From IMG/VR virus record IMGVR_UViG_3300048922_000352, positions 1-31,912 of that record: a stretch of DNA of 31,912 bases. The stretch is one strand, 5' to 3'. The position numbers were made by a program, and so were the translations under genes. The notes beneath the pieces are model-generated. The model had not been told where the DNA came from and did no database searches. It saw only the letters and a list, made by a program, of their open reading frames with translations. Source of the stretch: a virus. This document shows, piece after piece, positions 6,070-19,832 of this stretch (positions within the stretch are counted from its first letter, which is position 1; the number at the start of each line of letters is the position of its first letter).

Positions 6070-6900
6070 TCAGACCCTGGAGATTTTCAGGACGACGCGC
6101 CCGATGATCTCGGCACTGCCGTCGAGCACCAGCTCGAAAGGCTGGTAGCGAGGGTTGAGGCTGGTGCAAATGATTCGCGGAGGATCGCTCCCGCGCACCA
6201 ACTCGACCTGTTTGATGATGGTCTCGTCTTCGTCACGCACCGCGAAGATGCCACCTTGGCGGAGCTGCTGATCGCCCCGATTGATCAGCACCCGGTCGCC
6301 ATCTCGAAAGCCGCCGCCGCGTTCGTCGGTCATGCTGTCCCCGAACACGGGGGCGATATCGACGGAGGATAAGCTGACGTGCAACTCCTCACGCAGGAAC
6401 GATGTCGGCATCCGCCATTCCGCGCGAACGGTGTCGCCGGTGTAGCTTCTCGACCCTTCGTTGACCTGGGCCGGAAGGGGATAGCCGCCGCCTCCTGCAC
6501 CCAAGCGGGTATCGATTTCGGGGATCGTTCCTGGCTCAAGATTGCGCGATGCGATTCGCCGCCCGTCGACCATCGCCACAGCTTGCTCGGCAGCGAACTC
6601 TGGTTCGTAGCCGCGAGCTTTCAACAGGTCAGAGGCCAGGCCGACCGTGGTCTGAAACGGCTCGATCTCGCTCGCGTCCTCAGGAAGTTCCTTCGCTCCA
6701 AACAAGTAGCCGACATCGCAATTGAGCATACGAGAGGCCCGCAAGACAGCATCGGGCTTGATGCTCATCTTACGGCCGGTCAGAAAATCGTTGAAATACG
6801 TCCGGTAAAACTTCAGCTTGGTCGATAGCTCGTAGGACGTCATGCCGCGCAGCTCAAGAAGCTGATCAAGGTTCTTCTTTGCGATTTCTGTGCGATCCAT
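6070..6900 (-). CDS. LexA/CI-type lysogeny repressor (XRE HTH + S24 peptidase)
   Basis: A 276-residue phage repressor. An XRE-type helix-turn-helix occupies about residues 5-66 (AKKNLDQLLELRGMTSYELS onward). The C-terminal half is an S24 LexA-like autopeptidase with the catalytic Ser in GDSM (Ser189) and Lys in IIKQVE (Lys230). An Ala-Gly pair in LGAGGGG (135-136) is at the expected cleavage position, so inactivation by RecA-stimulated self-cleavage is likely. The ATG at 6900 is chosen because GGAGG precedes it by five bases; an in-frame ATG 42 bases upstream lacks a site. The gene is divergent from the early operon, with operator-like repeats in both flanks, and is expected to hold both early promoters off. 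Confidence 0.9.
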   Translation of the reverse strand: MDRTEIAKKNLDQLLELRGMTSYELSTKLKFYRTYFNDFLTGRKMSIKPDAVLRASRMLNCDVGYLFGAKELPEDASEIEPFQTTVGLASDLLKARGYEPEFAAEQAVAMVDGRRIASRNLEPGTIPEIDTRLGAGGGGYPLPAQVNEGSRSYTGDTVRAEWRMPTSFLREELHVSLSSVDIAPVFGDSMTDERGGGFRDGDRVLINRGDQQLRQGGIFAVRDEDETIIKQVELVRGSDPPRIICTSLNPRYQPFELVLDGSAEIIGRVVLKISRV

Positions 6901-6948
6901 AACGTCCTCCGCGTCGTAAAAATCGCACGAGAGGTATCGCAAGGCCAG

Positions 6949-7009: not shown

Positions 7010-7282
7010 ATGGTGCCCATGGAACGTGAGATCAAACTCCACATCCGCGCGCTCGCCGAGGCGTATGCCCGGATGAACAGTCTCAGCCTGACGGCGGTGA
7101 TGAAGGCCTCAACGGGCGACGGTTCTCTGCTCACCAATCTCGACCAGGGCAGGTCGATCACGTTCCGTCGCGCGGACGAAATCCGCCAGTGGTTTTCGGA
7201 TCGCTGGCCGGCGGGCGAACCGTGGCCGGAGGGGCCGTCGCCGCGTCCGGAGCCGCGCGAAGTAAGCGAGGCGGCAGAATGA
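7010..7282 (+). CDS. Small Cro-position regulator candidate (90 aa)
   Basis: First gene of the rightward operon and divergent from the repressor, the position of Cro in lambdoid phages. The protein is helical at the N-terminus (IKLHIRALAEAYARMNSLS), followed by a TAVMKASTGDGSLLTNLDQG segment and RRADEIRQWFSDRWP. This pattern recurs in small Rhizobiales phage and plasmid proteins I associate with HTH regulators, although a canonical HTH is not certain. No Shine-Dalgarno is visible. The ATG at 7010 follows an operator directly, so translation may be leaderless; an in-frame ATG at 7019 is the alternative start. The C-terminus ends EAAE, overlapping the next start. Confidence 0.6.
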   Translation: MVPMEREIKLHIRALAEAYARMNSLSLTAVMKASTGDGSLLTNLDQGRSITFRRADEIRQWFSDRWPAGEPWPEGPSPRPEPREVSEAAE

Positions 7283-7599: not shown

Positions 7600-7986
7600 A
7601 TGGCCCAGAACATCACGAAGGCCGGCAATACCCTCGACAAGAAGATCGTCGATCAGTTCATCGCTGATTGGGAACGTGCCGAAGCCGAGATCCGCACGAT
7701 CAAGGCGGAGAACGCCAAGCGCTGCCGCGACGTCCAGGAGCGCCGCGACGGCATCCTGAAGGTCGTGAAGGGCGCCGGCATGACGGCGAAGGCCTTCAAG
7801 GCCACCGTCAAGATCCGCGCGAAAGAGCGCGAGATCGAGGCTATCGAGGCCGAGCTCGAGGATGACGACGCGGATTCCTTCGAGCAGATCCAAGCCGCCC
7901 TTGGTGTGCTAGCCGATACCCCGCTCGGTCAGGCTGCTTCAGCCGGCAAGGGCAAGGCGAAGCCCGAAGACGGCGCGGTGCACTGA
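7600..7986 (+). CDS. Coiled-coil protein with GapR/DUF2312-like layout
   Basis: A 128-residue, strongly charged helical protein. Residues 12-60 form a Glu/Lys/Arg coiled coil, followed by a GAGMTAKAFKATVKIRAKER segment, a further acidic helix, and a disordered Gly/Lys tail. The order of a coiled coil, an x-K-A-(L/F) turn and a basic helix resembles GapR (DUF2312), a nucleoid-associated protein of alphaproteobacteria that binds overtwisted DNA ahead of replication forks. This is a visual resemblance only. The ATG at 7600 has AGAGGA upstream and is preferred over an earlier in-frame ATG at 7540. It overlaps the DnaA-like gene by one base, consistent with a replication role. Confidence 0.6.
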   Translation: MAQNITKAGNTLDKKIVDQFIADWERAEAEIRTIKAENAKRCRDVQERRDGILKVVKGAGMTAKAFKATVKIRAKEREIEAIEAELEDDDADSFEQIQAALGVLADTPLGQAASAGKGKAKPEDGAVH

Positions 7987-8354
7987 TGCTGGCGCCCAGT
8001 CCTCGTGCTTGCCCGTGCTGTGGCGGCGAGCTGCCGCCGATCGCCGTCGTACTCGGTCGCGGTGGGCAGCCCCGGCTTGCTTCCATCGTTTCCGCGGCGG
8101 CGCGCATGTATCGCGTGCCCCCCGATCTGCTGGTGCGCAGCAAGACGGCGGAGCCGCTGTATGTGCGCCACATCGCGATGTTCGTTGCCTGGCGTCACTT
8201 CGGTCACAGCCTTGGTGGCATCGGGCGGGGCTTCAGCCGTGATCGCACGACCGTAAGGCATGCCGTCCGCAAGATCGAAGCCGCGCTAGCCGAGGATCCT
8301 GCGATCCGCCGCGACGTTACGTTGCTGGAATCCTACCTGCGGAGCGCGTCATGA
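7986..8354 (+). CDS. DnaA domain IV (DNA-binding) protein
   Basis: A 122-residue protein whose C-terminal two thirds matches the DnaA C-terminal DNA-binding domain. It has an initial helix (about 33-45), a basic R-x-I-A-M-F-V-A-W helix (61-70), and SLGGIGRGFSRDRTTVRHAV (75-94), the DnaA signature with Asp86-Arg-Thr-Thr-Val at the base-contacting site. No AAA+ domain is present, so it cannot be a full initiator. It could mark or block DnaA boxes, or recruit or antagonise host DnaA. The N-terminus has a CPCCGGEL motif (9-16) that may bind a metal. It is coupled to its neighbours by one- and four-base overlaps and is immediately followed by a GcrA homolog. Confidence 0.85.
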   Translation: MLAPSPRACPCCGGELPPIAVVLGRGGQPRLASIVSAAARMYRVPPDLLVRSKTAEPLYVRHIAMFVAWRHFGHSLGGIGRGFSRDRTTVRHAVRKIEAALAEDPAIRRDVTLLESYLRSAS

Positions 8355-8842
8355 CGACGTGGTCTCAACAGGAAGACAAGCGCCTCATCGAGCTGCTCGC
8401 GGAGGGATGGTCGCACCAGGAGATCGCGGTCGCCATGGCCGGCGAAGGCTTCCCGGTGCGCACGCGGAATGCCGTGATCGGCCGTGCTGATCGCATCGGA
8501 CACAAAAGCCAGTTCAGCGCGAAGCAGCGGGAAAAGAAACCCGCCGCTGTCAGCTCGCCGGTGAAACGGCAGCGGGCAGTGAAGCGCGCCGCAGCGCGGC
8601 CCGAGCCGGTTGTCGCGGAGCCTCCTCCTGCCCCGGTGGTGGAAGCCCCACCGCCGCCGCCGGCGCCCGTGCACATCTTCGAGGCGAAGGGGGATGAATG
8701 TCGATTCCCACTCTGGCCACACTGGCAGCGGGTCCCGCCCAGCGAGCTGATGGTCTGCGGCGCCAAGACGGCGCCGGGCGACACATACTGCGCCGCCTGC
8801 AAGCTCATCGCCTATCAGCCGGCGGGAGCGCGAGCGGCATGA
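8351..8842 (+). CDS. GcrA-family cell-cycle regulator
   Basis: A 163-residue member of the GcrA family, transcription cofactors restricted mainly to alphaproteobacteria that bind sigma-70 polymerase and act at GANTC-methylated promoters. The N-terminal HTH (about 3-50) shows the family pattern W-x-x-x-E-x-x-x-L-x-x-L-L-x-E-G, then RTRNAVIGRADRIGHKS. A Pro/Ala-rich linker (about 64-110) leads to the C-terminal polymerase-binding part: CRFPLW near 116-121, then CGAKTAPGDTYCAACKLIAY, matching the Cys-rich C-terminal motif. It would redirect host transcription, possibly with the methyltransferases encoded downstream. It starts on an ATGA overlap. Confidence 0.9.
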   Translation: MTTWSQQEDKRLIELLAEGWSHQEIAVAMAGEGFPVRTRNAVIGRADRIGHKSQFSAKQREKKPAAVSSPVKRQRAVKRAAARPEPVVAEPPPAPVVEAPPPPPAPVHIFEAKGDECRFPLWPHWQRVPPSELMVCGAKTAPGDTYCAACKLIAYQPAGARAA

Positions 8843-11442
8843 ACGCGCTTCCTGATTATCGCCAGTTCCTCGAGAGCAAGATCCGCGTCGCTCCGGCGAC
8901 AGGCGTGTCGATCCCGCTCGAGGATATTAATCCGGTCCTGAAGCCGTTCACCCGGGCGATCGTGCAGTGGGCGGTGCGCGGCGGCTGCCGGGCGATCTTC
9001 GCCAAGTTCGGCCTGCACAAGACGTGCACGCAGATCGAGCTGTGTCGCGTGCTGAAGGCGAAGGTCGGCGGCTACGCGCTGATCGTGCTGCCCTACGGCG
9101 TCCGGCAGGAGTTCTTCCGTGACGCCCGCGAGCGCTTCGCCGGGCAGTTCGGCGTCACGCTGAAGTTCATCCAGCGGCCGGAGGAGATGGACGGCGAGGA
9201 GCCGATCTACCTCACCAATTACGAGACCATCCGCGACGGCAAGCTCGACCCGAGCCTCTTCACCATCGCCTGCCTGGACGAGGCGTCGATCCTCCGGAGC
9301 TTCGGCTCGAAGACCTTCCAGACCTTCTTGCCGATGTTCGACCAGGTGAAGTTCAAGTTCGTCGCCACCGCGACGCCTTCCCCGAACCGCTACAAGGAAC
9401 TGATCCACTACGCCGGCTTCCTCGGTGTCATGGATACCGGCCAGGCGCTGACTCGCTTCTTCATGCGCAACAGCGAGAAGGCCGGCGACCTCACGCTCTA
9501 CCCGCACAAGGAACATGAGTTCTGGTTGTGGGTGTCGAGCTGGGCGATCTTCCTGCAGCGCCCCTCCGACCTCGGCTTCTCCGACGAAGGCTATGACCTT
9601 CCGCCGCTGACGGTGCGCTGGCACGAGGTGCCGGTGCGGCTCGCCGGCGGTGCTGATCGCGACGGTCAGTTCTCGTTGATCCGGCCGGAGGCGAACGGGC
9701 TGGCGGAGGAAGCGCGCGAGCGGCGCGCCGCGCTGCCGGCGTGCATCAGCAAGCTCACAGAGATCATCTGGCAGGATCCTGCCGCACATCGGATCATCTG
9801 GCACGACCTCGAAGACGAGCGCCGCGCCATCGAGAAGGCGATCCCCACGGTGGAATCGGTCTTCGGCGCGATGGACCTCGAAGACCGCGAGCAGCGCGTC
9901 ATCGACTTCTCGGACGGCAAGTTCCGATACCTCGCGGCGAAGCCGATCCTCGCCGGCTCCGGCTGCAACTTCCAGCGCCACTGCCACAAGGCCGCGTTCG
10001 TCGGCGTCGGGCACAAGTTCAACGACTTCATCCAGGCGATCCATCGCATCCAGAGGTTCGGTCAGCCGCACCCGGTCGAGATCGACATCATCTATCCCGA
10101 GACCATGCGGGCGGCGCGCCGCGACCTCGAGGCAAAATGGGCGCGCCACGAGGAGATGGCAGACCGCATGAGCGATATCATCCGGCGTTACGGTCTCAGC
10201 CAGGCCGGAATGGCCGAGGTGCTGAACCGCTCGATCGGCGTCGACCGGATCGAGGCCAGCGGTGCCCGCTGGCAGGTTGCGAACAATGATTGCGTCGAGG
10301 AATGCCGGCGCATGGACGCCGACAGCGTCGACCTCATCGTCTCGTCGATCCCCTTCTCGAACCACTACGAATACACGCCGAGCTACAACGACTTCGGCCA
10401 CACCGACGATGACGCCGCCTTCTTCCGGCAGATGGACTTCCTGACGCCGGAACTGATGCGGATCCTGAAGCCCGGCCGCGTCGCCTGCATCCACGTGAAA
10501 GACCGGATCCTGTTCGGCTCGGCCACGGGCTTGGGCACGCCGACCGTCAATCCCTTCCACGCGAAGACGCTGTTCCACTTCATGCAGCACGGCTTCGCCT
10601 ACATGGGCATGGTGACGATCGACACCGACGTCGTGCGGGAGAACAACCAGACCTATCGGCTCGGCTGGACGGAGAATTCGAAGGACAGCAGCAAGATGGG
10701 CGTCGGCTCGCCTGAATATCTGCTGCTGTTCCGCAAGCTGCCGACGGACCGCAGCCGCGCCTATGCCGACCAGCGCGTCACGAAGACCATGCCGATGGTC
10801 GAGAACGCCGACGGCACCGTCGTGCCGTTCCATGACAAGGGCAAGCCGATCCCCGGCACCGGCTACAGCCGGGCCCGCTGGCAGACCGATGCCCATGCTC
10901 GCTGGCGCTCCAGCGGCGACCGGCTGCTCACCGCCGACGAACTGGCGCAGCTCTCGCCCGACGTCATCGGACAGGTCTTCAAGGGCTTCTCCATGGAGAC
11001 GGTCTACGATTACGAGACGCACGTGCGGATCGGCGAGGAGCTCGATTACCGCGGCGTGCTGCCGGCGACCTTCATGGCGCTCTGGCCCGCCAGTCCACGG
11101 CCGGATGTCTGGCACGACGTCAACCGCATGCGGACGCTCAACACGGCGCAGGCCTCGGCCGGCCGCGAACTGCACGTCTGTCCGCTGCAATTCGACATCG
11201 TCGATCGCTGCATCCACCGCTTCAGCAATGAGGGCGATCTCGTCTTCGACCCATTCGGCGGACTTTTCACCGTGCCGATCCGCGCCCTCAAGCTCGGCCG
11301 CCGCGGCCGGGCCGTGGAACTGCACAACGGATATTTCCTCGACGGCGTGAAGTACCTGGAGGCGCAGGAGCGGGATCAAGCGATCCCGAGCTTCTTCGAC
11401 TTCCTTGAGGCCGATGCCGCCCAGCCGGAGGCGGCAGAATGA
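8839..11442 (+). CDS. SF2 helicase fused to beta-class DNA methyltransferase
   Basis: An 867-residue two-part protein. Residues 40-440 form a superfamily 2/SNF2-type helicase. The motif I region FAKFGLHKT (55-62) keeps the Lys-Thr but has His where the P-loop Gly should be. Motif II is DEAS (147-150), motif III TATP (177-180) and motif VI AIHRIQRFGQ (400-409). From about 475 to the end is a DNA methyltransferase: catalytic-type motif SSIPFS (502-507, in place of (D/N/S)PP(Y/F/W)), then LKPGRVACIHVKD, a long target-recognition stretch, and finally the SAM-binding LVFDPFGGLFTVPIRAL (801-817). This order is that of beta-class N6-adenine or N4-cytosine enzymes, the class of CcrM. No nuclease domain is seen, so it is not a full restriction enzyme. 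The start overlaps the GcrA stop. Confidence 0.85.
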   Translation: MNALPDYRQFLESKIRVAPATGVSIPLEDINPVLKPFTRAIVQWAVRGGCRAIFAKFGLHKTCTQIELCRVLKAKVGGYALIVLPYGVRQEFFRDARERFAGQFGVTLKFIQRPEEMDGEEPIYLTNYETIRDGKLDPSLFTIACLDEASILRSFGSKTFQTFLPMFDQVKFKFVATATPSPNRYKELIHYAGFLGVMDTGQALTRFFMRNSEKAGDLTLYPHKEHEFWLWVSSWAIFLQRPSDLGFSDEGYDLPPLTVRWHEVPVRLAGGADRDGQFSLIRPEANGLAEEARERRAALPACISKLTEIIWQDPAAHRIIWHDLEDERRAIEKAIPTVESVFGAMDLEDREQRVIDFSDGKFRYLAAKPILAGSGCNFQRHCHKAAFVGVGHKFNDFIQAIHRIQRFGQPHPVEIDIIYPETMRAARRDLEAKWARHEEMADRMSDIIRRYGLSQAGMAEVLNRSIGVDRIEASGARWQVANNDCVEECRRMDADSVDLIVSSIPFSNHYEYTPSYNDFGHTDDDAAFFRQMDFLTPELMRILKPGRVACIHVKDRILFGSATGLGTPTVNPFHAKTLFHFMQHGFAYMGMVTIDTDVVRENNQTYRLGWTENSKDSSKMGVGSPEYLLLFRKLPTDRSRAYADQRVTKTMPMVENADGTVVPFHDKGKPIPGTGYSRARWQTDAHARWRSSGDRLLTADELAQLSPDVIGQVFKGFSMETVYDYETHVRIGEELDYRGVLPATFMALWPASPRPDVWHDVNRMRTLNTAQASAGRELHVCPLQFDIVDRCIHRFSNEGDLVFDPFGGLFTVPIRALKLGRRGRAVELHNGYFLDGVKYLEAQERDQAIPSFFDFLEADAAQPEAAE

Positions 11443-11447
11443 CCTCT

Positions 11448-12098
11448 CTAGACCTTCGTTTCACCGATCAAACGCTTAAGCTCTCGTATGCGAGCGCCAA
11501 GTTCATTGCCATATATGGCCGCCTTGTTGGCAGCATCGTTCATTTCGGCAAGATGCGCATGGAAATCTCGGCGGTGGAACACAATAATATGTTCCATTGG
11601 CGCGCCACCCCTCTGGTCTTGCACTGCCTTGTCAAGATCAACAATATCCGCCCATGTGCGCATAAACATGACTTTCATCTTATTCTTTATATCAAATGGA
11701 GCATCAGGAAAAAGGCTGGAAATTATAGTTGCCGGGTAGATATCTTTCCCCGTAATAGCGGTATACGGCTTCATTATATTACCAAGCTTCTCCTTAACGT
11801 CGTCATCGTTCTGAAAGTAAATAAGGTTATCAACCCAGTAACGATACTCTACACCTGCAGACGCTGCGACATTCCACTCTTTTTTCGCCTCGAACAATTC
11901 GAGTTGATAAGACTGACGCATCACCGAGTTGAAAGCGAGATATCCGGCAAAGATCGTAGCTCCCGCGCCAATCAAAGGCGCCCCGATTTGACCGGCTACT
12001 TCGAGCCATCCCAGCGGCGCAAACCGCACAAGTATCCCGCCCACCGCGCCAGCGAGGAGCGCGGCAAGAACCAAAAGAATGATGTTTCTATAGCTCAT
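11448..12098 (-). CDS. Membrane-anchored cargo protein, reversed in the operon
   Basis: A 216-residue protein with two N-terminal hydrophobic segments (about 5-25 and 35-57) followed by a cytoplasmic-type soluble domain rich in charged and aromatic residues (EYRYWVDNLIYFQNDDDVKE onward) and a helical C-terminus. It is clearly lower in GC than its neighbours and is the only gene transcribed against the early operon, which marks it as a later insertion (moron). No domain is recognised. Lysogeny-expressed single-gene cargo of this topology is often involved in superinfection exclusion or anti-phage defence, but nothing proves that here. A plus-strand frame covers the same bases; I prefer this one because of its hydrophobicity pattern. 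Confidence 0.7.
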   Translation of the reverse strand: MSYRNIILLVLAALLAGAVGGILVRFAPLGWLEVAGQIGAPLIGAGATIFAGYLAFNSVMRQSYQLELFEAKKEWNVAASAGVEYRYWVDNLIYFQNDDDVKEKLGNIMKPYTAITGKDIYPATIISSLFPDAPFDIKNKMKVMFMRTWADIVDLDKAVQDQRGGAPMEHIIVFHRRDFHAHLAEMNDAANKAAIYGNELGARIRELKRLIGETKV

Positions 12099-12145
12099 TC
12101 TTCGACGCTGCCCGTTCGCTCTTCGGTTGTCGAGAGGGCGGTAGC

Positions 12146-14224
12146 ATGAGCGAAGTCGAGATCCGTCATTTCCACATCTGCTGCGGCCTCGGCGGCGGCG
12201 CCAAGGGCTTCAACAAGGGGCAGGCGCGCGTCGGCACCATGAAGGCGAAGTTCGTCTGCATCGGCGGCGTCGACAGCGATGCAGCGGCGATCCGCGACTT
12301 CACCCGCGCCGCCGGCGTCGCCGGCACGGTGCTCGACCTGTTCGATCGGCGCCAGTATGCCGCCTTCCATGGGCATGAACCGCCCGCCAATTGGCGCGAG
12401 GCGACGCCGGCCGATTATCACCGTGCTGCTGGTGGAAAGCGGCCGCACATCATATTCGCGTCGTTCCCCTGCAAAGGGTTCTCCGGTCTGCTCTCGGAGA
12501 CGATGAGCAAGACCACGAAGTACCAGGCATTGAACAGCCTGAGCTTCCGGGGGCTGTGGCTGGCGCTGGAGGCCTGGAAAGACGATCCCGCCGAGTTCAT
12601 CATCTTCGAGAATGTGCCGCGCATCGCGACGCGCGGCCGCCACTTCGTCGATCAGCTCGTCGCGCTGCTTCGCAGTTATGGTTATGTCGTCGCCGAGACA
12701 ACGCACGACTGCGGCGTGATCGGTGGACTTGGCCAGAGCCGCAAGCGCTTCTTGATGGTGGCGCGGCACGCCGAGAAGGTGCCGCCCTTCCTCTACGAGC
12801 CGCCGAAGCGCCGGCTGCGCGGTGTCGGCGAGATCCTCGACAAGCTGCCGCTACCAGGCGATGAGCGCGGCGGCCCCATGCATCGCGTGCCTTCGCTGCA
12901 GTGGAAGACGTGGGTGCGCCTGGCATTCGTCGAGGCCGGTTCGGACTGGCGTTCCTTGAACCGGCTGAACATCTCCGACGGCGTTCTCGCCGATTATGGG
13001 ATCGAGCCGGACAGGACTTGGCAAGCTGGCGTTCTCGGCGTGCAACGTTGGGGAGAGCCGAGCGGCGTCGTGGCCGCGCGCAGTGGCCCGACGAACGGAG
13101 CTTTCGCCGTCGCCGATCCGCGGGCGCCCGACGGCGCGCTCCAGTACGGCAACTATGGTGTCCGCGGCTGGGAGGATTCCACCGGCGCCGTGATCAATGT
13201 GAAGTCGCCGGGACAGGGCGGCTTCGCGGTTTCTGATCCGCGCATGGAAGGCCCGCCGCGCTTCAATAACGTCTTCCGTATCGTGCCATGGGGCGGCACG
13301 TCGCCGGCCGTGGCAGGTCCTGGTGGACCGGCCGGCGGGCTTGCTGTGGCTGATCCTCGTCCGTCGGCGCGGGAGGATTACAAGCAGACGAAATACCGGA
13401 TCACCTCGTTCGGTGAGGCCGCGGGCACTGTCATCGCTGCATCGACGACAGGGAACGGTGCGTTCGCGGTCGCGGATCCTCGCCCCGGCTTCGGGCCGGC
13501 AACGCACCACAACATCATGCAGGTCCACGATTGGGAGGACCCGGCCAAGACGGTGACCGGCGGCACCCATCCAAGCGGCGGCGCGCTCTGTGTCGCCGAC
13601 CCGCGCGTTGCGCGCCGCAATGGCGCACTCGGGACGGCAGATTGGTCCAAGTCGGCCGGGGTCGTGGCCGGCGAAAGCCTGCCGTCAAACGGAGCCTTCG
13701 CAGTGGCCGATCCACGGCCGCGCGCGCTGAGCGACGAAGGCCGCAAGGATTATCTGAGCGGCGGGCACTACGGCGTCGTCGGCTGGGAAGACACCAGCGG
13801 CGCGGTGCCCGCCTTCGCCAAGAACAACAACGGCCATTGGTCCGTCGCCGACCCGCGCGAGGCGGATCCGGCAATCGAGCCGCTGCTGTCCCTGCCAGAC
13901 GCCAGCAGCAACCTCGTCGCCATTATCCGCGCGCTCGACGGCACCTGGCATCGGCCATTCACGACGCTTGAGCTCGCCGCGCTGCAAAGCCTCGTCGATC
14001 CGGAGACGCTCTTCACACTTGAGGGCAAGTCCGATTCCGCGTGGCGCGAGCGCATCGGAAATGCCGTGCCACCCGATAGCGCCGCCGCGATCGCCTCGGT
14101 GATGGGCCGCACGCTACTGCTCGCCTGGGCGGGCGAGAGCTTCATGTTATCCGCCGATCCCATTTGGGTGCAGCCGCTCACCGTGGCGCTCTCGGTCGAC
14201 CTGCCGATCGAGGTGCTGTCATGA
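12146..14224 (+). CDS. C5 cytosine DNA methyltransferase with repeat-expanded variable region
   Basis: A 692-residue C5 methyltransferase. Motif I is FHICCGLGGGAKGF (9-22); motif IV is FPCKGFSG with catalytic Cys109; motif VI is ENV (155-157); motif VIII is GLGQSRKRF (194-202); motif IX region RPFTTLELAALQSL (603-616); motif X is RIGNAVPP (636-643). Between VIII and IX, where the target-recognition domain lies, there are seven copies of a roughly 40-residue unit, making the protein almost twice the usual length. It would methylate cytosines in phage DNA for restriction avoidance or regulation. No restriction nuclease partner is present. A GAGAGGG site precedes the ATG. Confidence 0.9.
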   Translation: MSEVEIRHFHICCGLGGGAKGFNKGQARVGTMKAKFVCIGGVDSDAAAIRDFTRAAGVAGTVLDLFDRRQYAAFHGHEPPANWREATPADYHRAAGGKRPHIIFASFPCKGFSGLLSETMSKTTKYQALNSLSFRGLWLALEAWKDDPAEFIIFENVPRIATRGRHFVDQLVALLRSYGYVVAETTHDCGVIGGLGQSRKRFLMVARHAEKVPPFLYEPPKRRLRGVGEILDKLPLPGDERGGPMHRVPSLQWKTWVRLAFVEAGSDWRSLNRLNISDGVLADYGIEPDRTWQAGVLGVQRWGEPSGVVAARSGPTNGAFAVADPRAPDGALQYGNYGVRGWEDSTGAVINVKSPGQGGFAVSDPRMEGPPRFNNVFRIVPWGGTSPAVAGPGGPAGGLAVADPRPSAREDYKQTKYRITSFGEAAGTVIAASTTGNGAFAVADPRPGFGPATHHNIMQVHDWEDPAKTVTGGTHPSGGALCVADPRVARRNGALGTADWSKSAGVVAGESLPSNGAFAVADPRPRALSDEGRKDYLSGGHYGVVGWEDTSGAVPAFAKNNNGHWSVADPREADPAIEPLLSLPDASSNLVAIIRALDGTWHRPFTTLELAALQSLVDPETLFTLEGKSDSAWRERIGNAVPPDSAAAIASVMGRTLLLAWAGESFMLSADPIWVQPLTVALSVDLPIEVLS
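13025..13858 (+). repeat. Seven tandem 40-residue coding repeats in the C5 methyltransferase
   Basis: Each unit contains W-x-x-x-x-(G/A)-x-V, a variable 8-10 residue stretch, then G-(A/G)-F-A-V-A-D-P-R. The aromatic residues fall at 302, 342, 382, 422 (Phe), 463, 500 and 547, and the closing Arg at 326, 366, 405, 446, 487, 524 and 571, so the period is 37-41 with one 47-residue unit. The units are diverged at the DNA level, so the array is not a recent slippage product. The W-x-x-x-x-G-x-V part resembles the segment found once before motif IX in ordinary C5 methyltransferases. Confidence 0.85.
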
Positions 14225-14490
14225 GCGAGGTTCGGTACGAATTCTTCGTCGAGATGAAGGTGTGCGGCCGGCCGGAGACGACGTGCCTCGGTCGCGTCAC
14301 CGCGAATTCCGCGATCGGCACCGCCGTCGGCATTGCCTTCGCCAGCATGAAGCCCAGTGAGAAGGAAGGCATGCACATCGGCCAGTGCGCGGCAGCGCTG
14401 CTGGCGATGGCCGGCGATGCCAGCAGCTACCCGGTCAAGAAGCGCATCGGCACCGCCGAGATGTCGCTCAACATCAGGAGGGCATCTTGA
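14221..14490 (+). CDS. Unknown early protein (89 aa)
   Basis: An 89-residue protein starting on an ATGA overlap with the methyltransferase stop. It begins MSEVRYEFFVEMKVCGRPET, predicted beta-rich, followed by a helical Ala/Gly-rich middle and a basic C-terminus (NIRRAS). No domain is recognised. Its stop overlaps the TTG start of the resolvase gene, so it is part of the early operon. Confidence 0.65.
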   Translation: MSEVRYEFFVEMKVCGRPETTCLGRVTANSAIGTAVGIAFASMKPSEKEGMHIGQCAAALLAMAGDASSYPVKKRIGTAEMSLNIRRAS

Positions 14491-15050
14491 GCGCCCTCGC
14501 ACTCGACCTCGGCAGACTGACCGGCTGGGCGTGCGGCGAGCCCGATGCCGTGCCCCGGTTCGGCACGCATGTGTTGCCGACCACCGGCGACGATATCGGC
14601 CGCTATCTGCATGCCCACCGCGAGTGGCTGACCGGCTTCATCCAGGTCGAGCGGCCGACGTTCGTCGTCTACGAAGCGCCCATCCTGGCCGAGGAGACCA
14701 CGAAGGCCACGGTCATCAAGTTGATGAGCCTCGCCGGCGTCACCGAGCTGATCTGCCGCGATCTCCAGGTCCGCTGCTACGACACGCACCTGTCCTCGGT
14801 GAAGAAGTTCCTGACCGGTACCGGGCGCGCCAAGAAGGCCGACATGGAGGCTGCGGCGCGCCGCTTCGGCTTCGCCGTGCGCAACGACAACGAGGCGGAC
14901 GCGATCGCGATCTGGGGCCAGGCGGTGATGCTCCGCTATCCCGGCAAATGCCAGATCTTCAGCATGGGCCAGCTCGGCGGCAAGACGTTGCGCGCCGAAG
15001 CGGCGCCGCCGTCGAAGCTCGGTGACGACGTCGAGGACATCCCAATATGA
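14487..15050 (+). CDS. RuvC-like Holliday junction resolvase
   Basis: A 187-residue RNase H-fold nuclease of the RuvC type that would cut branched recombination or replication intermediates. The acidic residues are in place: Asp7 in LALDLGRLTGW, Glu63 in FVVYEAP, and Asp134/Glu136/Asp138 in NDNEADAIAIW. The rest shows the helical middle (KATVIKLMSLAGVTEL) and a Lys-rich DNA-contact stretch (SSVKKFLTGTGRAKKADM). The start is a TTG overlapping the previous stop (TTGA) with a strong AGGAGGG site five bases upstream; an ATG 102 bases upstream adds only a shadow of the neighbouring gene. Confidence 0.85.
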   Translation: MSALALDLGRLTGWACGEPDAVPRFGTHVLPTTGDDIGRYLHAHREWLTGFIQVERPTFVVYEAPILAEETTKATVIKLMSLAGVTELICRDLQVRCYDTHLSSVKKFLTGTGRAKKADMEAAARRFGFAVRNDNEADAIAIWGQAVMLRYPGKCQIFSMGQLGGKTLRAEAAPPSKLGDDVEDIPI

Positions 15051-15400
15051 CGTCGGTGATCCTTGGCGCCTGGCGCGCGCCTCCCGCAGCGAGGGAGGGC
15101 AAAATCCTGATCGACGTGGCGAACCGCACGCTGACGCGCGGCGCCGACGTCGTCCGGCTCTGCCCCGGCGAGTTCATCTTCGCTGTGGTGCTGCTGAGCG
15201 CAGCCGGTCGGACGCTCAGCCGAAAGGAATTGATGGAGGCCATGTACGGCGATCGCGAAGACGGCGGTCCGCTGAGCAAGGCGCTCGACGTCTATCTGTG
15301 CCGCGTTCGCCGCTCGCTGCTGTGCATCGGCGTCCGTTTCGAAACGGTGTGGGGGCGCGGCATCTGCGCCCTGATCGATGTGCCTGAGGCTGCAGAATGA
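15047..15400 (+). CDS. CtrA-like OmpR-type winged-helix DNA-binding protein
   Basis: A 117-residue protein consisting of an OmpR/PhoB-type winged helix, the DNA-binding half of response regulators such as CtrA, without a receiver domain. Features: a strand leading to LCPGEFIFAVVLLSAAGRTL (38-57), SRKELMEAMYG (58-68), a recognition helix region (LSKALDVYLCRVRRSLL, about 76-92) and the wing FETVWGRGICALID (98-111). The E-T-V-W-G-R-G wing and the M-Y-G turn are notably CtrA-like. With no phospho-acceptor domain, activity would be constitutive and set by its level. It could imitate or compete with host CtrA at TTAA-N7-TTAA boxes; near-boxes exist in both early promoters of this phage. Confidence 0.75.
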   Translation: MTSVILGAWRAPPAAREGKILIDVANRTLTRGADVVRLCPGEFIFAVVLLSAAGRTLSRKELMEAMYGDREDGGPLSKALDVYLCRVRRSLLCIGVRFETVWGRGICALIDVPEAAE

Positions 15401-15717
15401 CCGAGCCTGCGATCACCTATGTGATGGCGCCCACGCGTGAGCAGATCGAGGCATCTTTTCTTGTCTCGGAAGCGCGTCGAGCCGTGCCCAAAATCGACAG
15501 TCGGGGCTTGGCGGCGATCGCAATTGATGAGGCAGACCGGATTGAGGGCGCGCAGCGGTCTCTCATCATATCTGGAGCCCGAAGCTTCCCGGACCCCGGC
15601 GAGATCCGAGCAGCCGCGGGCCTTTGGCAGATGTTCGACTTGCTCCTGATGATCTCAGAGCACGATAAGGAGTTCCGCCCAATCGTCATGCGCTGGATCA
15701 GCGAACGGTGGCGTTGA
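15397..15717 (+). CDS. Unknown early protein (106 aa)
   Basis: A 106-residue protein beginning MTEPAITYVMAPTREQIEAS, coupled to the CtrA-like gene by an ATGA overlap. It is mostly helical, with an aromatic and hydrophobic C-terminal part (AAGLWQMFDLLLMISEH) before a basic end (MRWISERWR). GC is slightly lower than in the neighbours. No known domain is recognised. Confidence 0.6.
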   Translation: MTEPAITYVMAPTREQIEASFLVSEARRAVPKIDSRGLAAIAIDEADRIEGAQRSLIISGARSFPDPGEIRAAAGLWQMFDLLLMISEHDKEFRPIVMRWISERWR

Positions 15718-16067
15718 TGGCACGCTATTGGCCCCGGCGTCGCATCGCGCATCTCGGTTATCTGGTCGGCATCGGTTGCACCGGACCGCAGATTGCGGCT
15801 GCGCTCAGCATGGCGAACCTGCAGGCGATCTCGAATGCGTGCCAGCGCTACGAGTTAAAGCTTCAGCGTCGCGGGGATGGTCGCTTCGTCGAGGCGATCC
15901 CAATCTCGCGGAAGTCCCTCGCCGTCATCGACGAGGCGGCGGCACTGCGCGGCATCGACCGCGTGCAGATGCTGCAGAGGATCGTCGAGGTCTTCGGCCA
16001 TGCGGAAGATGTCGAGGACGATCTCGACCTGATCACGAACCTCCTGGACGATGGAGGCGGGCTGTGA
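15717..16067 (+). CDS. Unknown small protein with HTH-like N-terminus
   Basis: A 116-residue protein starting at the ATG that overlaps the previous stop (TGATG); a GTG nine bases upstream is the alternative start. The N-terminal half has the order W-x-x-x-x-I-x-x-L-x-x-L-V-x-x-G, then a Q-I-A-A-A-L helix and a second helix ending in ACQRYELKLQRR. This is reminiscent of the GcrA-type HTH, though weak. The C-terminal part (about 65-110) is helical and very acidic (DVEDDLDLITNLLDD). A DNA-binding role is plausible only. Confidence 0.55.
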   Translation: MARYWPRRRIAHLGYLVGIGCTGPQIAAALSMANLQAISNACQRYELKLQRRGDGRFVEAIPISRKSLAVIDEAAALRGIDRVQMLQRIVEVFGHAEDVEDDLDLITNLLDDGGGL

Positions 16068-16690
16068 TCGAGGCCGAGAAGAAAGCGAAGGTTGCCCACG
16101 TCTGGGCCCGCGATCCGAACGATTGGTATGTCGAAGAGGCGTGGGTGAACCGCCGCCTCTTCGAAGAGGAGCGCTTCGAGGGTCCGATCTGGGATCCTGC
16201 GGCCGGCATGTGCCGTATGCCCGACGCGGCGCGTGCCGCCGGCTATGACGCCATCGGCTCCGATCTGGTGTCCCGCGGCTACGGCGAGATCGGCGGCGTC
16301 GATTTCCTCAGCCTGCAACAGCCTCTCAAGGTGCGCGGCCAGCCTGCGCGCTCCATTGCATCGAACCCGCCATTCGGCATCTGTGAAGCCGATATCAAGG
16401 CAGGTCGGCCGATCGGCTTTGTCGAGCATGCGCTCCGGCTCGCCGAGCACAAGGTTGCAATGGTGCTGCCGGCGCGTTGGTTGTGGGGCGACGAACGCAG
16501 CCGCTGGCTGGAGAAGAGCAACCCGCGCCGCGTCTACATCCTGACCCCGCGACCCTCCATGCCACCGGGCGCTGTTATCGCCGCCGGCATCGAGCCGGGC
16601 GGCGGCGACAAGGACTTCCTGATTATCGTGTGGCTGCGTGGTTACGACGGGCCATTTGAGACGCGCTGGCTGCGTCGGGACGGTGCGTGA
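16064..16690 (+). CDS. SAM-dependent DNA methyltransferase, gamma/NPPF type
   Basis: A 208-residue methyltransferase. The SAM-binding motif is IWDPAAGMCRMPDA (42-55), followed by an acidic loop (AIGSDLVSRGYG, motif II-like), and the catalytic motif is SNPPFG (100-105). The order motif I before NPPF is that of gamma-type N6-adenine enzymes. The size is small, with little room for a large target domain, so specificity may be narrow or supplied by a partner. A GTG start overlaps the previous stop (GTGA) with GGAGG nine bases before. It is the third methyltransferase of this operon and none has a cognate nuclease. Confidence 0.8.
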   Translation: MIEAEKKAKVAHVWARDPNDWYVEEAWVNRRLFEEERFEGPIWDPAAGMCRMPDAARAAGYDAIGSDLVSRGYGEIGGVDFLSLQQPLKVRGQPARSIASNPPFGICEADIKAGRPIGFVEHALRLAEHKVAMVLPARWLWGDERSRWLEKSNPRRVYILTPRPSMPPGAVIAAGIEPGGGDKDFLIIVWLRGYDGPFETRWLRRDGA

Positions 16691-18846: not shown

Positions 18847-18966
18847 GGGACATCAGGGGACATTTGGCGTGCACATGGGGATAGATCATGAAAACCAATA
18901 AGATGGCAGATGCCGCAGCGGGGAACGATGTCCCCGATTGTCCCGTCGTGTCCCCGGCGATGTCCC
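18846..18966. repeat. GGGGACA heptamer cluster B, helically spaced
   Basis: Copies of GGGGACA at 18846 and 18856, then TGTCCC or TGTCCCC at 18929, 18939, 18949 and 18961. Neighbours are 10-12 bases apart, one helical turn, within each group. The cluster begins at the primase stop codon and runs through the first codons of the next gene. The same heptamer forms cluster A at 6008-6065. Confidence 0.6.
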
Positions 18967-19802
18967 GCGAGGCGAGGCGGGCCCAACGTGCCGCCGAGAA
19001 GGCTGAAAACGACGCCGGAAAGAAGCTGATCGCGGAGGCGAAGGCTGCGCGCGTCAAGGCAGCGAAGGCAAAGGCGCTCCGCGACGCAGATCGAGCTATG
19101 GAGCGTATCCAAAGCCGGGCGGCGTCAACGTCGCGGCTGTGGTCTCGGCAACGGAAGGATGAGCAAAAGCGGGAGCGCAAGAAGCTCGCGGAGCTGCGGG
19201 AGCGGCACAGCGTGGCGCGCGATGAGCCCGAGGTGCTTCGCGACGAGCGCGACTGGCTGGCCTCGAATGACCGGCCGAAAATTATCGTCGAGGCCGAGCC
19301 TGAGGCGGTCCTCGGCATGGTCGGGTTTGTGTCCGACCTGCGGCGACACGATCCGCCGATGCTGGAAGTCCCGCCGCCGAAATGGAATGAGGGCTGGGCA
19401 GCAAAGCGCGTCATCGACGCCTATCGCACGCTTTCCCTGCTGCCAGGAAGCACACGCCCGGCCGGCTTCGGCCGCGCATGGCCCGCCTATGTCACGGAAT
19501 TCTCCGATGCTGTGGCGCAGGCGCGGACGGACGCGGCGAAGACGCGCGTGATCGAGGTTGCCACCATCGAGGATATCGAGCGCATGGACCGGGTCTTCAC
19601 CTGGCCGGCGCGGTTCCTGCGGGATCGGCCGGAAGAGAGCAGGGCGCTGTTCCAGTGGGCGAATGCCAAGGTGATTCGCGGTGACATGCGAGAGTTGGCC
19701 AAATCCTTCCAGATGTCGGAGGCGACGTTCCGAAGGTTCCGGAGGTACGCCACAAGCCTGCTGACGGTTCGGCTGAAGGAAGGGCTAGAACAGATCTTCT
19801 AG
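18888..19802 (+). CDS. DUF6362-like protein with coiled coil and HTH
   Basis: A 304-residue protein of unknown function. The N-terminus is partly dictated by the heptamer repeats (NDVPDCPVVSPAMSREA). Residues 28-120 are a long basic Ala/Lys/Arg/Glu coiled coil. The C-terminal domain (about 165-304) has WAAKRVIDAYRTLSLLPGST, RAWPAY and DIERMDRVFTWPARFL, a pattern I associate with DUF6362, and ends in an HTH-like segment (MRELAKSFQMSEATFRRFRR). DUF6362-type proteins are common at the end of alphaproteobacterial phage replication operons. A role as the factor binding the heptamers, or as a late-gene regulator, is inference. The ATG at 18888 lacks a strong ribosome site. Confidence 0.7.
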   Translation: MKTNKMADAAAGNDVPDCPVVSPAMSREARRAQRAAEKAENDAGKKLIAEAKAARVKAAKAKALRDADRAMERIQSRAASTSRLWSRQRKDEQKRERKKLAELRERHSVARDEPEVLRDERDWLASNDRPKIIVEAEPEAVLGMVGFVSDLRRHDPPMLEVPPPKWNEGWAAKRVIDAYRTLSLLPGSTRPAGFGRAWPAYVTEFSDAVAQARTDAAKTRVIEVATIEDIERMDRVFTWPARFLRDRPEESRALFQWANAKVIRGDMRELAKSFQMSEATFRRFRRYATSLLTVRLKEGLEQIF

Positions 19803-19804
19803 TG

Positions 19805-19832
19805 GTGAGTCATCCAAACTGGCGTGAGTCAT
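19805..19832 (+). repeat. Direct repeat GTGAGTCAT x2, each with a GANTC site
   Basis: GTGAGTCAT at 19805-19813 and again at 19824-19832, 19 bases apart. The core TGAGTCA is palindromic and contains GAGTC, which matches GANTC, the CcrM methylation site at which GcrA acts. The pair lies a few bases after the early operon stop. Confidence 0.5.

Follow-up and report, generated by a model that had tools for sequence, protein, structure and literature searches.

A virus record of 31,912 nucleotides (IMGVR_UViG_3300048922_000352; the whole 31.9 kb stretch is called the window below) carries, in its rightward early operon, a DnaA domain IV protein, a GcrA homolog, a receiver-less CtrA-type winged-helix protein and a remote GapR relative. 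Judged by sequence comparison, these domain matches are too strong for chance, and alphaproteobacterial phages carry the combination repeatedly, as modular cargo that is linked above chance but forms no fixed cassette. Our preferred and still tentative reading is that the operon interleaves genes for replication and DNA methylation with DNA-binding modules derived from host cell-cycle proteins but lacking their control inputs, and that these modules may target the host.

Cell-cycle-type proteins of the early operon

The DnaA-type protein (7986..8354, plus strand) is 122 residues long and consists of domain IV only. It matches Bac_DnaA_C in Pfam with an E-value of 5.9e-13 (49.1 bits against a cut-off of 31.5), and the AAA+ ATPase domain is absent in the same database, as the first-pass annotation of the window, made from the letters alone, had recognized. 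The product aligns with domain IV of E. coli DnaA (PDB 1j1v, 8.4e-7), and the RD-TTV-HA-RKIE helix is kept. Its N-terminus carries a CPCCGG motif. Relative to what we take to be the corresponding residues of E. coli DnaA, D433, T435, T436 and H439 are retained, while H434 is replaced by R and P423 by G. An N-terminal CPCC motif stands before DnaA domain IV in the window (7986-8354) and before the CtrA-type winged helix in loci L203, L204, L205 and L014, a shared sequence feature that suggests domain shuffling between the two protein types. In another phage locus (L006, 9011-10291, plus strand), a DnaA-like protein retains a match to the ATPase domain (Bac_DnaA 2.5e-9) and lies near GcrA, helicase and methyltransferase genes.

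The overlapping downstream gene (8351..8842, plus strand) encodes the GcrA homolog. Its match to the Pfam GcrA family (PF07750, 6.2e-15, 56.3 bits against a cut-off of 26.9) spans profile positions 2-151 of 155, which indicates that neither the N-terminal helix-turn-helix (HTH) nor the C-terminal sigma-interacting region is missing. Residues 3-159 align end to end, including the C-terminal region, with Caulobacter GcrA (7ye1_G, 5.3e-7). The family assignment made at first reading thus holds over the full length of the protein.

The winged-helix protein (15047..15400, plus strand) matches the Pfam family Trans_reg_C (6e-9, 36.3 bits against a cut-off of 26.2) and has no receiver domain. The structure search could have placed this product outside the OmpR/CtrA fold; instead, the top 50 PDB folds retrieved with its model were all OmpR/PhoB-type domains, with weak E-values and a predicted local distance difference test (pLDDT) score of 61 for the model. 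The OmpR model ranked first in NCBIfam. Taken alone, the sequence of the window copy is therefore ambiguous between CtrA and other OmpR-type regulators, and the evidence for a CtrA relationship comes from the phage family to which it belongs.

This receiver-less family comprised 274 matching viral stretches, and 72 non-redundant loci were studied. Among its sampled viral members, 33 of 33 matched the CtrA model and 0 of 33 had a receiver domain. A tree grouped the window copy and seven phage relatives with nine CtrA proteins, apart from twenty other host regulators (support 99/96). When the winged helix of prophage L203 was searched in 385 alphaproteobacterial genomes, 116 matched at E <= 1e-11, essentially one per genome, with 38-53% identity and mostly in frames of 240-270 residues; the CtrA recognition-helix signature was present in 28 of the 30 loci examined. 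Based on these comparisons, the nearest cellular relative of the phage family is CtrA, a placement much less ambiguous than that of the window copy alone, and the earlier description of a CtrA-like winged helix without receiver is upheld at this level. The 80 viral loci of the family were retrieved with patterns for the recognition helix and the wing; the invariance of residues in these elements is partly by construction, because the loci were picked by those patterns. Viral contigs scanned with the window winged helix or the window GcrA as single proteins gave no relatives. Many phages carry receiver-less CtrA-type genes as tandem pairs (L270, L304, L310, L319, L320, L328, L336, L339 and L341), whose products are perhaps heterodimer partners.

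The first gene of the module series (7600..7986, plus strand) had been described as possibly encoding a GapR-like coiled-coil protein. Profile-profile comparison with hhalign matched its product to a phage GapR profile at 94.8% (E 5e-8 for one comparison, with a possible coiled-coil bias), and a profile built from the product itself hit a GapR-type protein of L020 (1.7e-9). The AlphaFold2 model has two long helices and one short helix (pLDDT 77). The match to Pfam GapR (PF10073) lay under the cut-off, at an E-value of 0.6, a scan of the window for this family gave no match, and the model had no PDB fold match. We consequently regard the protein as a putative, remote GapR relative: the helical, GapR-like character stands in profile comparison, and neither Pfam nor the fold search adds to it.

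Downstream of the GcrA gene lies a helicase fused to an N6/N4 DNA methyltransferase (8839..11442, plus strand; phrog_16 1.9e-122, N6_N4_Mtase 4.6e-12), whose true start is 8839, not 8842. Its methyltransferase half belongs to the beta class, because motif IV (SSIPF, residue 502) precedes motif I (FDPFGG, residue 803). The first-pass annotation had called it a CcrM-class enzyme; the fusion and the beta class are correct, but CcrM identity is rejected, since the protein scores 20.2 bits against a cut-off of 830 for the NCBIfam CcrM equivalog. With this, the claim of a near-complete cell-cycle set that includes CcrM is not supported. The two further methyltransferases noted earlier are present, namely a C5 cytosine DNA methyltransferase (12146..14224, plus strand; DNA_methylase 4.4e-13, phrog_32684 2.7e-107) and a DNA methyltransferase of phrog_799 (16064..16690, plus strand; 2.3e-35). 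A 58.6% identical homolog of the C5 enzyme is found in prophage L203, which also has the winged helix, GcrA and DnaA domain IV.

Recurrence of the set in other phages

When the window winged helix was searched alone in 397 Hyphomicrobiales genomes, four loci were found. L203, which is the same as virus record L267, holds the winged helix, GcrA, the C5 methyltransferase and DnaA domain IV together. In L204 the winged helix adjoins GcrA, and GapR is also present. L206, a prophage in which terminase and portal genes are present, has a winged helix and, in addition, a single protein (12250-12816, minus strand) in which a GcrA-type HTH and DnaA domain IV are fused; each part scores above its Pfam cut-off. 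The fourth locus is a short contig.

Across the 72 winged-helix loci, GcrA occurred in 22, DnaA domain IV in 10, GapR in 13, and at least one of these in 31. GcrA and DnaA domain IV were both present in six loci where about three were expected (p 0.039), and GcrA lay within 500 base pairs of the winged helix in 8 of its 22 loci (p 9e-4, under a rough uniform null). In L267, L293 and L309 Pfam confirmed GcrA as well as DnaA domain IV; in L287, L289 and L307 it confirmed one of the two, the DnaA domain IV match in L307 being weak (9e-5). The DnaA domain IV and GcrA genes lie next to each other in the window and also in L002 and L005.

A separate sample was drawn around the helicase-methyltransferase: at least one of GcrA, DnaA domain IV and GapR was present in 11 of 19 alphaproteobacterial loci compared with 2 of 43 others (p 8e-6). 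One of the two exceptions, L157, is labelled as a beta proteobacterium and holds GcrA, GapR and DnaA domain IV; it is possibly a mis-binned alphaproteobacterial phage. Recurrence in at least six other viral contigs, together with the fusion of a GcrA-type HTH to DnaA domain IV, bears out the earlier view that the combination matters. The idea of one designed unit is not supported, as the members assort modularly.

Operon setting, binding sites and possible targets

The window runs from a leftward arm (with genes for a RecT-like annealing protein, a nuclease, an SMC-like ATPase and RNase T) through a CI-type repressor and the rightward early operon to the head genes, which lie 3' of the operon and encode terminase, portal, protease and major head protein. 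No integrase was seen among the window genes, and the record is probably a fragment. The repressor (6070..6942, minus strand) combines a Cro/C1 HTH with an S24 peptidase (Pfam Peptidase_S24 1.8e-11, HTH_26 9.5e-5; phrog_4 repressor 2.2e-25) and adjoins the operon, consistent with the earlier placement of the operon under a lysogeny switch. The nearest relatives of the helicase-methyltransferase are in Ancylobacter genomes (80% identity), which makes a host from the Hyphomicrobiales probable. In our best reading, the rightward operon serves the early lytic phase of a temperate phage that infects such an alphaproteobacterium.

The first operon gene encodes a small protein in the Cro position (7010..7282, plus strand), with no match in Pfam and homologs in the same place in L018, L098, L203 and L205. 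The C5 methyltransferase gene is followed by genes for a RuvC-like Holliday junction resolvase (14484..15050; phrog_159 1.2e-19) and, past the winged helix, a small protein without family (15397..15717; no match in Pfam, PHROG or NCBIfam) and a protein with a stretch resembling the GcrA HTH, seen by eye only (15717..16067; no match in Pfam). After the phrog_799 methyltransferase come the primase/helicase for phage replication (16687..18846; AAA_25 4.7e-32, phrog_239 1.7e-37) and, at the end of the early region, a DUF6362 protein (18888..19802; 3e-6, slightly under the Pfam cut-off) that is kept after the primase in L096-L099; all these genes are on the plus strand. Most gene junctions overlap by 1-4 bases, which indicates tight coupling and agrees in part with the single coupled operon proposed at first. 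The operon is not one unbroken unit, however, because a minus-strand gene interrupts it: the segment 11442-12146, with 42-48% GC at its centre, holds a plausible membrane-protein gene (11448..12098, minus strand) whose product has a hydrophobic N-terminus and no family match above cut-off. This AT-rich insert between two methyltransferase genes resembles a moron.

How could the DNA-binding proteins act? The first-pass annotation saw a decoy or override system, a reading that is plausible but tentative. After induction, the CtrA-type and DnaA domain IV proteins would occupy host CtrA sites and DnaA boxes, free of phosphorylation and ATP control, and this occupation would restrain the start of chromosome replication and reset the promoters of the cell cycle. 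The GcrA homolog, with sigma-70 at GANTC-methylated promoters, would keep replication genes on for the phage. The outcome would be an S-phase-like cell with its own origin silenced and replication-competent for the phage. As the set recurs in several unrelated phages, phages of alphaproteobacteria would probably interfere habitually with the host cell cycle. We are more doubtful about a stronger claim, that a version of the CtrA-DnaA-GcrA circuit that is blind to signals, made up of receiver-less CtrA, ATPase-less DnaA, intact GcrA and a GapR-like protein and assembled repeatedly, jointly locks the host in an origin-silenced S-phase state as a phage counter-circuit.

Matching sites would be expected on the phage genomes if the CtrA- and DnaA-type proteins kept host specificity and had phage DNA as their target. 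In the winged-helix loci, TTAA-N7-TTAA with at most one mismatch occurred 59 times against about 60 for other spacers, which gave 46-87, so this box is not enriched; no DnaA-box cluster was found in any tested locus. Within the window there were 10 CtrA boxes with two mismatches against 11.4 expected and one near-match to the DnaA box against 1.6 expected. The lack of CtrA-box enrichment and of DnaA-box clusters points to host targets or to changed specificity, two possibilities that it does not separate.

Several observations weigh against this host-directed reading. The window winged helix is only 28-29% identical to host CtrA, the same as to other regulators, and moving it to the other side of the tree was not rejected by the approximately unbiased (AU) test (p 0.42). 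Presumably, the residues that set DnaA domain IV specificity are also partly unlike those of E. coli DnaA (H434 to R). Near-matches to the CtrA box number just two in the window, and both are intergenic (5823 and 6976; P 0.02), one of them in the gap between CI and Cro; such positions hint at action on phage DNA. Finally, the members assort nearly independently (both GcrA and DnaA domain IV in 6 of 72 against about 3), which means that a single concerted function is not needed.

Alternatively, the regulators may be ordinary factors for phage transcription and replication that were taken from a host in the distant past, have acquired their own specificities and now act on phage promoters and the phage origin, in the early/late switch or lysogeny control, with no host cell-cycle target. 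We rate this possibility nearly equal to that of host-directed action. It accounts for the strong divergence of the window copies, as the winged helix shows only the low identity to CtrA given above and DnaA domain IV has the lowest score among the above-cut-off matches (50 bits against about 100 for most). It also accommodates the modular assortment, the CtrA-box-like sites in the CI/Cro gap and in a second intergenic position, and the location of other phage winged-helix genes, which sit in early regions close to genes for replication and methyltransferases. On the other hand, the phages lack canonical CtrA-box enrichment and DnaA-box clusters, and the CtrA-like site is absent from the Cro gap of relatives. 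The strong restriction to alphaproteobacterial phages also counts against this alternative, although local recruitment predicts it too.

It seems improbable that the proteins instead read the state of the host, competing with host CtrA, DnaA or GcrA at phage promoters and thereby timing induction to a cell-cycle phase. This would parallel the deferment of lysis through CtrA that has been reported for other phages; several alphaproteobacterial phages have genes under the control of host CtrA (PMC9437464), and the site in the CI/Cro gap is near consensus. However, overall site counts are at chance, the TTAA-N7-TTAA box is not enriched in the family, and the Cro-gap site is not conserved. It is very improbable that small, unrelated DNA-binding proteins gathered by chance and share no role: taken singly, every family is frequent around the helicase-methyltransferase (GapR in 7/19, GcrA in 4/19, DnaA domain IV in 2/19 and the winged helix in 3/19 alphaproteobacterial loci), so that some phages will carry several, but GcrA-winged-helix adjacency and GcrA/DnaA co-occurrence exceed chance, DnaA domain IV and GcrA are neighbours in three loci, and L206 fuses them.

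GANTC is five-fold depleted in the window (37 against 185 expected). The median ratio of observed to expected GANTC was 0.18 in alphaproteobacterial phage loci and 0.67 in other helicase-methyltransferase loci, with no site at all in L015 and L130. Because the depletion is general to the alphaproteobacterial phage loci, it agrees with adaptation to a host that methylates GANTC and points to no specific mechanism. Two direct repeats of GTGAGTCAT at 19805 and 19824 (19805-19832), 19 bases apart and each with a GANTC, follow the DUF6362 gene. A late promoter based on these GANTC repeats was considered and rejected, as they are not conserved after the homologous gene in L096-L099.

Significance and known systems

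The Caulobacter-type circuit is a leading model of bacterial cell-cycle control. A large receiver-less CtrA phage family, found recurrently with GcrA and DnaA domain IV, would supply candidate natural dominant-negative or always-on alleles of this circuit, and makes phage steering of the alphaproteobacterial cell cycle directly testable. It also carries a warning for annotation: matches to CtrA, GcrA, DnaA or GapR in alphaproteobacterial genomes may be phage copies.

Individual parallels exist, in keeping with the earlier remark that single phage homologs of GcrA and CcrM are known. GcrA is carried by phiCbK-like Caulobacter phages (PMC3556154), Agrobacterium phage Atu_ph08 (PMC6630229) and phiLM21-like prophages (PMC12429752), and for phiCbK and Atu_ph08 it was proposed to drive host replication genes (PMC3556154, PMC6630229). 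These proteins belong to the same family as that of the window, and are described there without a CtrA-type or DnaA domain IV partner in the operon. The PhiLM21 methyltransferase, with a reported CcrM-like specificity (Dziewit 2014, cited in PMC12429752), is, like the enzyme of the window, a phage methyltransferase linked to the CcrM circuit; the window enzyme differs in being fused to a helicase and in falling below the cut-off of the CcrM model. In E. coli, the cryptic prophage genes yfdQRST, when overexpressed, restrain host initiation through DnaA (PMC4776307). YfdR binds the DnaA protein, whereas the protein of the window corresponds to the part of DnaA that binds DNA.

A tblastn search for GcrA in named phages found none, and in open-licence papers we found no account of the combined set, of phage DnaA domain IV together with GcrA, or of receiver-less CtrA proteins as a phage family, which is weak evidence. 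Among individual phages, Rhizobium phage RHph_X2_30 (MW980061) comes close: a single early region encodes a GcrA-like protein, a receiver-less CtrA-type winged helix, GapR and a methyltransferase. Unlike the window, it has no DnaA domain IV protein, and its annotation names the genes one by one and does not treat them as a set. Bradyrhizobium phage ppBeUSDA76-2 (OP596614) shares the stand-alone DnaA domain IV, with DUF2312 (GapR) about 900 bases downstream, but GcrA and a CtrA-type protein were not found in it. Roseobacter phage RDJL Phi2 gp32 ('transcriptional regulator CtrA') is a receiver-less CtrA-type winged helix with a near CtrA recognition helix, in a phage with no GcrA and with different replication genes. 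Single members of the set are therefore already known in phages, and what appears to be new is the combined set and the CtrA-type phage family.

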